This document shows, piece after piece, positions 22,490 to 52,002 of a stretch of 64,000 nt of DNA (its first letter is position 1; each line of letters begins with the position of its first letter). The position numbers and the translations under genes are program-made. The DNA lies in assembly GCA_014653815.1 (NCBI GenBank), contig JACWDZ010000001.1, forward strand, positions 62,001 to 126,000. The letters run 5' to 3'. A model generated the notes under the pieces. It was given only the letters and a program-made list of their open reading frames with translations. It was not told the origin of the DNA and did no database searches. Source of the stretch: Pelagibacterales bacterium SAG-MED29. GTDB taxonomy: Bacteria > Pseudomonadota > Alphaproteobacteria > Pelagibacterales > Pelagibacteraceae.

Positions 22490-22533
22490 TTATATTTGAC
22501 TTTTTATTTCATATAGAGGAGAATCTCTTTTGT

Positions 22534-22692
22534 AACGGGAGAGACTACTTTAATGTAGCGCCGAAGGAGCAACTACCCTAGAAACTCTCAGGCAAAAGGA
22601 CCGTTGCCGTAATAACTCTGGAAAGAAGGCGTAAGCCTCACCGAAGGATTAAATCTCTCAGGTACATGGACAGATAGGGTTAGTTTAGAGTT
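22534..22692 (+). promoter_or_regulatory. Tandem glycine riboswitch upstream of gcvT
   Basis: Two glycine aptamers lie in series. Aptamer 1 spans about 22534-22605: its P1 pairs AACGG (22534-22538) with CCGTT (22601-22605), and it contains GAGAG, GCCGAAGGAGCAA and CTCTCAGGCAAAAGGACCG, the hallmark glycine-riboswitch blocks. Aptamer 2 spans about 22614-22692: AACTCT (22614-22619) pairs with AGAGTT (22687-22692), with CACCGAAGGAT and CTCTCAGGTACATGGACAGA inside. The second P1 ends 3 nt before the gcvT start codon. Glycine binding is expected to set expression of gcvTHP; there is no obvious terminator hairpin, so control is likely at translation. Confidence 0.95.
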
Positions 22693-22695
22693 ATT

Positions 22696-23790
22696 ATGGA
22701 AGTACAAAAAACAGCTTTATACAATATTCATAAAAACCTTGGAGCAAAATTTGTTCCTTTTGCAGGGTATGAAATGCCAATTCAGTATAAAGACGGGATT
22801 GTAAAAGAGCATATCTCTACAAGAACTTATGCTGGGTTTTTTGATGTTTCTCATATGGGACAATTCTTCTTAGAAGGAGACGAAACATTATCAGAAGCCT
22901 TAGAAAAAATTATTCCTGCAGATTTAAAATCTTTAAAAATAAATCATTCAAAATACTCTTTTTTACTTAATAATAATGGAGGAATAATTGATGATTTAAT
23001 TGTAACAAAAACTGAAAAAGGATTTTCTATAATCTTGAATGCGGCTTGTAAAGAAAATGATATTAAGCAAATTTTAAAATTTTTAGGAAATAATCATAAG
23101 CATCTTTTAAATAATGATTTATCTTTAATAGCTTTACAAGGACCTAAGTCAGTAGAAATATTGGAAAAATTGATACCTGGTGTTTCTAATTTAAAATTTA
23201 TGACTGGCAACAACTTTGATTTTGATAATGATAATTTATATATAACAAGATCAGGATATACAGGAGAAGATGGTTTTGAAATTTCTATCTCAAATCAAAA
23301 AGTAGAAAAACTAATTAACTTTTTAATTTTAAATGAAGTCAAACCTATAGGTTTAGGTGCTAGAGATACATTAAGATTAGAGGCAGGTCTTTGTTTGTAT
23401 GGGCATGAGCTCAACGAAAAAATCAATCCTATAGAAGCAAATTTAAAATGGGCCATTGCAAAAAAAAGAAAAGATATTGGCGGTTTTAATGGATGGGATA
23501 AGATTAAAAACCTATTAACTACTGGAAGTGAGAAAATTAGAGTGGGTATTAAGCCCGAGGGCAAAGTTATAGCTAGGGAAAATACGAAAATATTTTCAAC
23601 TGACGATAATGAGATAGGTCTCGTTACAAGTGGGACCTTTGGTCCTAGCGTAAATGCACCAGTAGCAATGGGTTACGTTAAATCAAATTTTGCTAAAGTT
23701 GGAACACCGATAAAGCTAGAAGTAAGAGGAAAAAAATATGGAGGTAAAGTTTCAGAGCTTCCATTTTATAAAAAAAGTTATGTTAAATAA
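22696..23790 (+). CDS. gcvT: Glycine cleavage system T protein (aminomethyltransferase)
   Basis: Transfers the aminomethyl carbon from the H protein to tetrahydrofolate, releasing ammonia and giving 5,10-methylene-THF. The 364-residue protein has the GcvT N-terminus ([16 protein letters not shown] near 16), FFDVSHMGQ near 48, the folate-binding [12 protein letters not shown] near 182 and the C-terminal [16 protein letters not shown] near 314. Length is standard. It is the first gene of gcvT-gcvH-gcvP and lies directly under the tandem glycine riboswitch. Confidence 0.96.
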
Positions 23791-49924: not shown

Positions 49925-51055
49925 ATGATCAACTCACTAGGTATAAAAAAAACACCTAAAGACACCAAAGTTGTTGTTGCAATGTCAGGGGGTGTGGACT
50001 CTTCGGTTGTTGCTGCACTAATGCAAAAAGAAGGTTACGATGTAACTGGAATTACTTTAAAACTGTATGATGATACAAAATCATCTAATGAAGGAAGACA
50101 ATGTTGCGCTGGTCAAGATATTTTAGACGCTAAAAGAGTATCAGAAAAACTTAATATAAAGCATGAAATTTTATTTTATCAGAAAAAATTTAAATCTGAG
50201 GTTATCAATTCCTTTATAGACAGTTATGTCGCCGGAGAAACACCTATTCCATGTGTACAATGTAACCAAACGGTCAAATTTAGAGATCTATTTAAATATG
50301 CTAAAGATTTAAAAGCAGACGCATTAGTTACAGGTCACTATGTTTCTAGAATTCAAAACAATGGACATGCAAACATGTATAGAGCGAAAGATCAAAATCG
50401 TGATCAAAGCTATTTTTTATTTAGCACGTCGCAAGAACAACTTGATTATCTTAGGTTTCCTCTAGGAGAAATTGATAAGTCAGAAACTAGGTTGATAGCT
50501 CAAAAGTTAAAATTAAATGTTGCAAACAAACCCGACAGCCAAGACATTTGTTTTGTTCCAAATGGAGATTACAGCTCGGTTATTAGAAAATTTAGACCTG
50601 AGTCTTTTAAATCAGGAAAAATATTGGATATTACTGGTAAACAATTAGGAGAACACGAAGGAATAATAAATTACACAATTGGTCAAAGAAAAGGGATTAA
50701 AATATCAAATGACAAACCTTTATATGTTGTAAATATAGATGCGAATAATAATACAATAATAGTAGGAACCAAAGAGCTCTTAGAGATTAAAGAAATTAAA
50801 TTAAGAGATTTAAATCTTTTAGGAAATGAAAAAGATTTTGAAAATTTGATCAATATAAAAGTTAGATCTACAGGAAAATTGCTTAAAGCAAAAATAGTTA
50901 TTTCAGATAGGTATGCAAAAGTTAAAATATTAGATAGTGAAACCGGCATTTCACCTGGGCAAGCTTGTGTTTTTTATTCTAAAGATGATTTTGGGGATAA
51001 AGTGCTTGGAGGTGGCTGGATTGATAAGACATATAACAGAAACTTATCCACTTAG
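49925..51055 (+). CDS. mnmA: tRNA-specific 2-thiouridylase MnmA
   Basis: Thiolates uridine-34 of tRNA for Lys, Glu and Gln. The 376-residue protein has the PP-loop [18 protein letters not shown] near 17, [11 protein letters not shown] near 55 with the first catalytic cysteine, [13 protein letters not shown] near 100, DQSYFLFS near 164 and [15 protein letters not shown] near 196 with the second catalytic cysteine. The C-terminal OB-like domain ends [17 protein letters not shown]. Length is standard. The structured-RNA candidate lies 70 bp downstream. Confidence 0.96.
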
Positions 51056-51124
51056 TTAACATCTAGTTTTAAAACACGCACAAGGTGATACCACTATTTT
51101 TTAAATGTGATTTAATTAAATTAA

Positions 51125-51302
51125 TTAAGAGGCAACTCTTAACTGGCCATTTAGGGAAAAACCGAGAGGTTCAAGCTTAAAGGGCAGAAAACAGGAGACA
51201 GCAGTACTAAACATCTCCTGTGATAGTGACGAAGGTAGTACTTCAACAGCGTCACAAAATTTAAAGGTTCGGTAGGGAAACCTACTGAATCTTTGATTTT
51301 TT
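51125..51302 (+). ncRNA. Candidate structured RNA with loop-loop pseudoknot and intrinsic terminator
   Basis: Five stems are visible by eye. H1: TTAAGAG (51125-51131) and CTCTTAA (51136-51142) with a GCAA tetraloop. H2: 51143-51155 with 51176-51187, continued past a GAAA/CAAG internal loop by AACC-GAGA-GGTT (51160-51171). H3: CAGGAGA (51192-51198) with TCTCCTG (51214-51220). H4: GTGACG (51226-51231) with CGTCAC (51250-51255). The H3 loop AGTACTA (51203-51209) is exactly complementary to TAGTACT in the H4 loop (51236-51242), suggesting a kissing interaction. H5 is a terminator: 14-bp stem 51263-51276 with 51281-51294, GAAA loop, then TTT-rich sequence to 51302. Family not recognised; it is neither RNase P, SRP RNA, tmRNA nor a known riboswitch as far as I can see. 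Confidence 0.7.
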
Positions 51303-52002
51303 ATAGGGTTCTTCTCCAGAAAAATCTTGAAAGTAAATAGAAAGATATAACCCCAACAAAGTAGTTCCATTCCAATGCATGTTTGAAATGAGTGTTACCT
51401 TTTGTAATTAAAACAGGAAGACTTAAAACTCCTACTAACGCAAGGATACTTACCAAAATAATTTTTAAGACTAGAACTTTTTTATTTACTAATTTTTCTA
51501 ACTTAAGTTTAAGTTTATAAAAATGGTAAACTAAAATTCCTTGAGCAATTATCTCAAATATAATAAATAATAAAAGTATCACTCTTCTAAAAAGCTTATA
51601 AATTTGAATGTCAAATTTTACACCAAGCAATATAGAGTGAATTACTAAAAAAATTGCAGATAAAATTCCAAATGTTTTAAATTTATAATTAAAATTTGAT
51701 GAATTAAGATTGTTTACTAGTTGATTATTGTTTTTCCAATAAATAAACAAAAAAACGGCAGTTAAAAACATTGAGGGTTTAAACACCAAATATTGAGGGA
51801 ATGTTCTCGAAGCTCTGCTTATCGACAAGCTGCCATCAAGGTAGGGAATAGAAAACCCCGATCTTCCAATTTGATCAACTGAGAAAATAGTGTTTTCAAG
51901 AATTCCAGGATTTTGTGAAATTATTAAACACAAATTTATTGCTAGCAATGGAATAAGAAAAATCCATAAACTCAATTTCCTTATTTGAGCTATTTCTTTC
52001 AT
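51301..52002 (-). CDS. Hypothetical multi-pass membrane protein
   Basis: A 233-residue protein with about six hydrophobic helices. The N-terminus is IRKLSLWIFLIPLLAINLCLI, with a loop FSVDQIGRSGFSIPYLDGSLSISRASRTFPQYLVFKPSMFL carrying charged and aromatic residues, and a C-terminal HFKHALEWNYFVGVISFYLLSRFFWRRTL. The layout (Arg/Pro-rich first loop, HALEWNYF near the last helix) faintly recalls Frag1/DRAM-type proteins, but I do not assign a family. Its stop lies at the terminator of the structured RNA. It is followed on its left by no other gene on that strand. Confidence 0.65.
   Translation of the reverse strand: MKEIAQIRKLSLWIFLIPLLAINLCLIISQNPGILENTIFSVDQIGRSGFSIPYLDGSLSISRASRTFPQYLVFKPSMFLTAVFLFIYWKNNNQLVNNLNSSNFNYKFKTFGILSAIFLVIHSILLGVKFDIQIYKLFRRVILLLFIIFEIIAQGILVYHFYKLKLKLEKLVNKKVLVLKIILVSILALVGVLSLPVLITKGNTHFKHALEWNYFVGVISFYLLSRFFWRRTL

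Follow-up and report, generated by a model that had tools for sequence, protein, structure and literature searches.

What kind of RNA, if any, is encoded by the roughly 180 nucleotides that lie between mnmA and a convergent gene in DNA of Pelagibacterales bacterium SAG-MED29, and what might it do? The original prediction, made from the letters of a 64,000-nucleotide stretch (the window), described an uncatalogued structured RNA with kissing loops, followed by its own terminator. Our analysis leads us to conclude that the locus is a real gene for the small folded IMES-2 RNA of SAR11 (Pelagibacteraceae). The IMES-2 family is already catalogued; to this the comparison of relatives reported here adds support, at the level of sequence, for a covarying helix between the loops of H3 and H4.

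Identity, fold and conservation of the window RNA

The window was searched against Rfam with cmscan, and positions 51118-51257 of the plus strand matched RF02035, IMES-2, at 137.5 bits (E 1.8e-35) against a gathering score of 54.7. The match is full-length (model positions 1-141 of 141), the same H1-H4 structure is kept, and the host is of the SAR11 type, in line with the marine SAR11-type hosts of the family. The original prediction had itself named a confident match to a known Rfam family as the outcome that would speak against novelty; such a match was found, and the description "uncatalogued" is therefore rejected. Our own covariance model, R1, gave the window copy 139.6 bits, with the window sequence among those from which R1 was built. 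Several other families that appeared in a permissive Rfam scan (STnc380, MIR9486, sn1185 and the Na+ riboswitch) each scored below their own gathering score and were set aside as chance. GOLLD, HEARO and IMES RNAs were reportedly described together in one 2009 paper. A search of the open-licence literature, which does not include that source, with the subjects IMES, SAR11, Pelagibacter and marine structured RNA returned no paper on IMES-2 function. The lone mention of IMES-2 encountered there belonged to a squid genome paper, and the word IMES had zero occurrences in the excerpts of PMC2704228, PMC2864571, PMC5069720 and PMC8131839.

The proposed stems H1-H4 were confirmed in sequence and fold at the predicted positions (Table 1). 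The 178-nt interval folded with an energy of -64.9 kcal/mol, compared with a mean of -35.7 (SD 3.6) for shuffled versions (z -8.06), and 0 of 200 shuffles were as good, which bears out the claim that stems of this quality are unlikely by chance. The Rfam model differs from what is described here: AGTACT is present in both kissing loops of the window and AGCGC in the consensus; the cmscan structure line shows no kissing helix, although such a line may not carry pseudoknots; and the upstream element, the terminator and the gene context all lie outside the model.

Table 1. Positions of the IMES-2 gene, its structural elements and its neighbours in the window.
Feature	Position	Strand	Evidence or remark
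mnmA, upstream neighbour outside the RNA gene	49925..51055	+	NCBIfam NF001138, 422 bits
Upstream motif, conserved (CACGCACAAGGTGATAC here, commonly CAACnAnnAAGTGATAC in the family), perhaps bound by an activator	51075..51091	+	upstream alignment
Extended -10-like element TGTGATTTAAT	51106..51116	+	conserved in g1 rows, looser elsewhere
IMES-2 RNA core (RF02035)	51118..51257	+	cmscan 137.5 bits, model 1-141
H1, perfect 7-bp stem, GCAA loop	51125..51142	+	fold; 100% of cells paired, double changes in 4/7 pairs
H2, long stem, GAAA/CAAG internal loop, GAGA-capped tip	51143..51187	+	fold; two helices, 94.1% and 91.4% of cells paired
H3 stem-loop	51191..51221	+	fold; helices 4 and 5, double changes in 8/8 pairs
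Kissing 7-mer AGTACTA, H3 loop	51203..51209	+	sequence, covariation
H4 stem-loop	51226..51255	+	fold; 88.4% of cells paired
Kissing 7-mer TAGTACT, H4 loop	51236..51242	+	sequence, covariation
Intrinsic terminator: hairpin 51261-51296 (16 bp, GAAA-capped), then TTTTTT	51261..51302	+	scan; z -6.5
Convergent gene, hydrophobic, likely membrane protein	51301..52002	-	stop codon meets terminator T run

At least 201 copies of the RNA were located, 81 in the genome set and at least 120 in a scan of named records; because these rows come partly from the same genomes, row counts are not genome counts, and two copies (L092 and L130) are cut by the end of their locus. A count of 160 distinct cores is too high, since 120 of the copies were given ends at a fixed length; over the first 128 nt, and with L080 and L119 omitted, 150 are distinct. 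The main alignment, A1, comprised 70 copies at less than 95.5% identity, chosen after L080, L119 and incompletely flanked rows had been set aside. In A1, 93.8% of the 3137 pair cells form standard pairs and 32 of the 45 pairs have been altered at both positions, so that the compensatory changes sought among SAR11 relatives are present and the stems are kept. None of 500 shuffles reached any of five covariation measures, sliding the pair partners lowered pairing to 32.6-41.6%, and RNAalifold, run unaided, returned 35 pairs, 27 of them with double changes. The fit is poorer at two places in H4: the listed pair of columns 124/142 is formed in 0/70 rows, and pair 125/141 is A-A in three rows, those of the window clade. 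In 67 of the 70 rows the H1 loop reads GCAA or GCGA, the remaining three (genus g5) being shifted in the alignment; another alignment places GUAA and GCAA at this loop in two of them. At the tip of H2 we found GAGA in 62 rows, GCAA in 4 and a shortened form in 4. Both tips are thus of the GNRA type except in g5 and g11. An open reading frame across the family was present in 0/70 rows in each sense frame and 1/70 in each antisense frame, and a coding region was rejected on the ground that no frame is conserved; the 81-residue antisense frame at 51125-51370 is mechanical.

The loop-loop helix between H3 and H4

The exactly complementary 7-mers on which the kissing-loop proposal was based are present, and a Watson-Crick match of at least seven between the two window loops arose in 61 of 20,000 loop shuffles. 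The energy model assigned about -6.1 kcal/mol to the window kiss duplex. For H4 alone it preferred a GAAG/CUUC hairpin overlapping the kissing 7-mer (-7.0 kcal/mol, versus -5.5 for the open form), and this hairpin rivals the kiss in the window's own clade.

Covariation in relatives backs the pairing. The six core kiss pairs form in 95.2% of cells of A1, three of them with double changes. A seven-pair helix modelled on the window copy is paired in 83.4% of cells (3.9-50.2% when slid) and has 17 cells with a double change, where shuffles have 2.4. In this test, restricted to the kiss, two of the five measures fell within the shuffle range, namely the number of double-changed pairs (3, a value reached in 74 of 500 shuffles) and the number of pair types (5; 326 of 500). 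When the double changes were placed on a tree built from the RNA outside the kissing columns, they amounted to 1 + 3 + 3, about seven events; the tree is midpoint-rooted, so the direction of the oldest change is uncertain. At least five contiguous Watson-Crick pairs are available in 60/70 sequences (67/70 when G-U is counted), and fewer than five in the other 10, with only three in L070; the kiss is weak in one clade. The longest matches were GCGCTA/TAGCGC (44 sequences), CGCT/AGCG (9), AGTACTA/TAGTACT (3, the window included), AGCACT/AGTGCT (3), TCGCT/AGCGA (3), GCGCT/AGCGC (2), CGCTA/TAGCG (2), and TAGCACT/AGTGCTA, GTGCTA/TAGCAC, TAGTACTA/TAGTACTA and AGC/GCT (once each). These results support an H3-H4 loop-loop helix that covaries across the family.

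The same loops raise the question of whether the RNA pairs with itself or with a second copy. In one alternative, IMES-2 would be a homodimer or oligomer in which the palindromic H3 loop, or H3 together with the H4 of another molecule, kisses intermolecularly. A palindrome of at least 6 nt is found in 52/70 H3 loops, 37 of them with 8 nt (TAGCGCTA or TAGTACTA), and two lineages have exchanged the central GCGC for GTAC in one piece. According to excerpts of PMC12286853, palindrome switching of this kind was taken as a sign of symmetric intermolecular kissing in OLE and GOLLD. OLE, ROOL and GOLLD share with IMES-2 covarying loop-loop helices in which palindromes switch; they are large RNAs with measured multimers (same excerpts), whereas IMES-2 is about 180 nt long and is known here from its sequence. 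Against the intermolecular form, the H3 palindrome is absent in 18/70 sequences, H4 has a palindrome of at least 6 nt in only 5/70 (L070 included), and 17/70 have no more than four self-complementary Watson-Crick pairs in either loop. Five of these 17 (L064, L077, L078, L079 and L081, from g12, g11 and g5) have lost the palindrome and retain H3-H4 complementarity of 6-7 bp, which indicates that the pairing held in common is that of H3 with H4; in the remaining twelve, 4-5 such pairs are present. We consider the homodimer unlikely, if worth keeping in view. The H3-H4 kiss probably forms within one molecule; taken by themselves, the sequences fit pairing within or between molecules.

Gene boundaries, neighbours and host range

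The region upstream of the RNA was aligned for 101 loci, left from 158 once near-identical ones had been removed, and 60 rows were inspected. The motif CAACnAnnAAGTGATAC is altered in g11 and g5, to forms such as GGAGATACC and GCGATACC, and some 14-16 nt past it stands a TnTGnTnTAAT element, well defined in g1 and less so in other genera. A sigma-70 scan of the window gene returned zero promoter pairs. The idea that the upstream motif marks a general promoter class was dropped: it is not enriched elsewhere in 14 SAR11 genomes (112 matches versus 105 for the reversed control, one mismatch allowed), and three more perfect matches (in G068, G070 and G061) had no RNA-like continuation by eye. The promoter would thus appear to be of the extended -10 type, aided by an activator. 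On the basis of the position of the -10-like element, we place the putative transcription start near 51122-51125; the gene begins slightly upstream of the predicted interval, the Rfam model starting at 51118.

Downstream of the core, a hairpin of -10 kcal/mol or better was found in 157/157 loci, a count made with no shuffled control over fully flanked loci other than L080 and L119. At least five T within 10 bases past the fitted stem were seen in only 63/157, and fitted stems sometimes absorb the T run. For the window, the predicted GAAA-capped terminator hairpin and its T run are present, with a stem that measures 16 bp by the scan rather than 14. Many g1 copies (e.g., L001 and L003) have a terminator hairpin without a clean T run, and what comes next is the convergent gene's 3' end; in such copies the hairpin may serve both strands. 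The upstream motif, the downstream hairpin and neighbours that differ among genera agree with the proposed layout of a stand-alone RNA. The other origin that had been suggested, from the 3'-UTR of mnmA, is unlikely as a general rule: the RNA has its own upstream motif and -10-like element, and rows of g6, g5 and g11 do not follow mnmA. IMES-2 is probably transcribed separately, as an RNA of about 180 nt.

Genomic context was compared by genus for 81 rows with a known genus. The arrangement of the window, mnmA upstream and a convergent gene downstream, recurs in g1 (27/28 rows), g9 (3/3) and g12 (1/1), and a convergent gene follows in 63 of the 67 rows that have mnmA upstream; the window copy of this gene had no Pfam or NCBIfam match. 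In g5 the RNA lies between SNase and convergent SRAP genes (3/3 rows), and the g11 row has a divergent SelO gene upstream and a same-strand gene 203 nt downstream. In g6, ogt follows on the same strand in 38/45 rows, 36 of these 38 having a recombinase, a small ORF or a DUF2938 gene upstream. Across all copies (at least 201), 103 have ogt on the same strand just downstream; the 38 of known genus among them are all g6.

Three genomes (G082, G062 and G075), read by eye, have the recombinase, the small ORF and ogt together without IMES-2. Comparison of an occupied site with L168 showed an extra block of about the whole gene, from promoter to terminator, with noisy alignment inside; in the comparison with L120 the intervening stretch was too different to be read cleanly. 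In the listed part of a recombinase tree, carriers and non-carriers are mixed, and G082 stands 0.013 substitutions per site from the carrier L120; the outgroup, L251, was labelled a non-carrier but belongs to G061, which carries IMES-2 at another site. A mobile integrase cassette was rejected: all 10 g6 genomes searched have a single copy of the recombinase and nine of these genomes lack IMES-2, so that it does not simply carry the RNA. Since IMES-2 in g6 is one gene beside a variable region, loss and transfer are indistinguishable. The recombinase is a Xer-like tyrosine recombinase, seen at L058, L074 and L240-L251 (g6, g7 and g5; e.g., L074:207-1175), that scores 70.2 bits with NCBIfam XerD, far below the cut-off of 329.6. 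The conserved palindrome ATTACTATTGATAACAATTAATTATCATTAGTAAT adjoins it, the core pattern occurring in 101 of the at least 201 IMES-2 rows and in 11/11 further loci, and 12 of 13 genomes have one match to this recombinase. Recombinase and palindrome look like a one-recombinase Xer/dif system, with dif beside its own gene and at the edge of a variable-gene region.

Order-wide, 200 of 397 genomes have an IMES-2 match, in 6 of 13 genera, all within the window's own family, which is taken as Pelagibacteraceae; among the matches listed, records are named Pelagibacteraceae, Pelagibacter or Pelagibacterales. A scan of relatives matched 26/37 g1 genomes and 0/24 of another family, and a class-wide sample matched 2/289, both in the window's family; these large scans used stricter filters, by which weak matches are lost. 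By the order-wide scan, 42 of 51 g1 genomes carry IMES-2. Among the nine that do not, seven have no mnmA match, one has a 29-residue match of 18.7 bits, and in the ninth (G316) the mnmA match ends 2 bases before the contig end. Lacking a usable mnmA locus, these look like gaps at the locus, and IMES-2 is likely universal in g1, a statement that draws on the mnmA status of these nine; the scan of relatives has eight further g1 genomes with no IMES-2 match. Eight g1 genomes that are 82-94% complete (G021, G036, G212, G242, G014, G334, G400 and G413) have no good mnmA match, which suggests either that their assemblies have a gap in common here or that the locus is truly deleted. In g6, IMES-2 is truly patchy.

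Divergent copies were sought in 17 match-less genomes at E up to 10; in all 17 nothing exceeded the cut-off, and five gave weak matches (best E 0.062). R1 found no IMES-2 in 11/11 match-less genomes of the window's family, in a search that recovered its three positive controls and scored 124 first-look candidates per genome. Another family, represented by 12 genomes, gave two 26-nt R1 matches (E 0.31) in 2 of them, and these were set down to chance. A phage origin was likewise rejected: there was no match in 50,697 phage records, pattern scans of IMG/VR gave 0 and 8 hits, and R1 applied to these 8 found a single stretch at E up to 1 (13.4 bits, E 0.019), and this lay away from the pattern site.

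Proposed role and alternatives

With a probability of roughly 0.55, we read IMES-2 as a trans-acting folded RNA with its own transcript, locked by the H3-H4 kiss and recognised by a protein. The reading starts from what was observed, that is, the family, the fold, the covariation of the kiss, the downstream hairpin, the upstream element, the absence of a frame and the changes of neighbour; from these we infer transcription, a kiss in cis, protein recognition and regulation. The RNA would be transcribed alone as about 180 nt, and its H3-H4 kiss would pack the two 3' hairpins together. A conserved surface, made up of the GNRA loops of H1 and H2, the H2 internal loop and the CAGAAAG linker, would be recognised by a protein that the RNA may sequester, scaffold or regulate in trans. 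That IMES-2 is missing from close relatives suggests a conditional rather than a housekeeping role. IMES-2 is an orphan RNA of SAR11, whose cells are among the commonest in the sea. It gains here a testable shape with a covarying loop-loop helix, together with probable gene limits, a host range for the genomes sampled, close relatives with and without it between the same neighbours, and a host in which the usual partners of small RNAs were not detected.

Those partners bear on the next alternative, an antisense small RNA whose exposed loops pair with mRNAs and for which the H3-H4 kiss is the off state. The loop 6-mers are highly conserved, and the competing H4 hairpin of the window clade overlaps the kissing 7-mer, so that the loops could switch. 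However, the loops covary with each other, which would not be expected if they mainly paired with conserved targets, and no Hfq was found in 13/13 SAR11 genomes (controls 5/14; the window's own genome is 80% complete). CsrA, the partner that a CsrB-type titrating RNA would need, was also not found (0/13; controls 3/14), and the two results together argue against a classic Hfq or CsrA mechanism. One-contig SAR11 genomes are among those with no match to Hfq, CsrA or 6S. An antisense role in general is doubtful; one that depends on Hfq is unlikely, as is a riboswitch acting on a neighbouring gene.

A bolder proposal, which we hold to be distinctly improbable, is that IMES-2 self-associates by way of the similar and often palindromic kissing sequences in its H3 and H4 loops: a monomer with the H3-H4 kiss in cis would interchange with H3-H3' or H3-H4' dimers or chains, and the assembly would be a SAR11-specific global regulator or storage device. 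If true, it would act in bacteria in which Hfq, CsrA and 6S were not detected.

6S RNA is a stand-alone structured RNA of similar length to IMES-2, and the latter might be its functional stand-in in SAR11, binding RNA polymerase. The Rfam 6S model (RF00013) had no match in 17/17 SAR11 genomes at E up to 1 (controls 6/14) and was absent from the gathering-level scan of the window, and some IMES RNAs were said in the 2009 paper to be very abundant. Yet 6S has another fold, a long rod with a central bubble, neither of which is part of the covariation-supported fold of IMES-2, and genomes free of IMES-2 likewise lack a 6S match, as do those with it. We regard such a substitution as very unlikely. 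That leaves the trans-acting, protein-recognised RNA to be set against a leader, either riboswitch or attenuator, that would control the next gene in cis, which is the least credible: the g6 terminator stands right before the ogt start codon, and this same-strand gene and that of g11 leave room for a cis role there, but the conserved same-strand downstream gene of a riboswitch is missing, the convergent orientation at mnmA and g5 loci leaves nothing to regulate, and G082, G062 and G075 have ogt without the RNA.

A glycine riboswitch at 22526-22613, the sole further gathering-level Rfam match in the 64-kb window, is located upstream of a gcvT-like gene at 22696 (a name read from the sequence) and is ordinary for SAR11.
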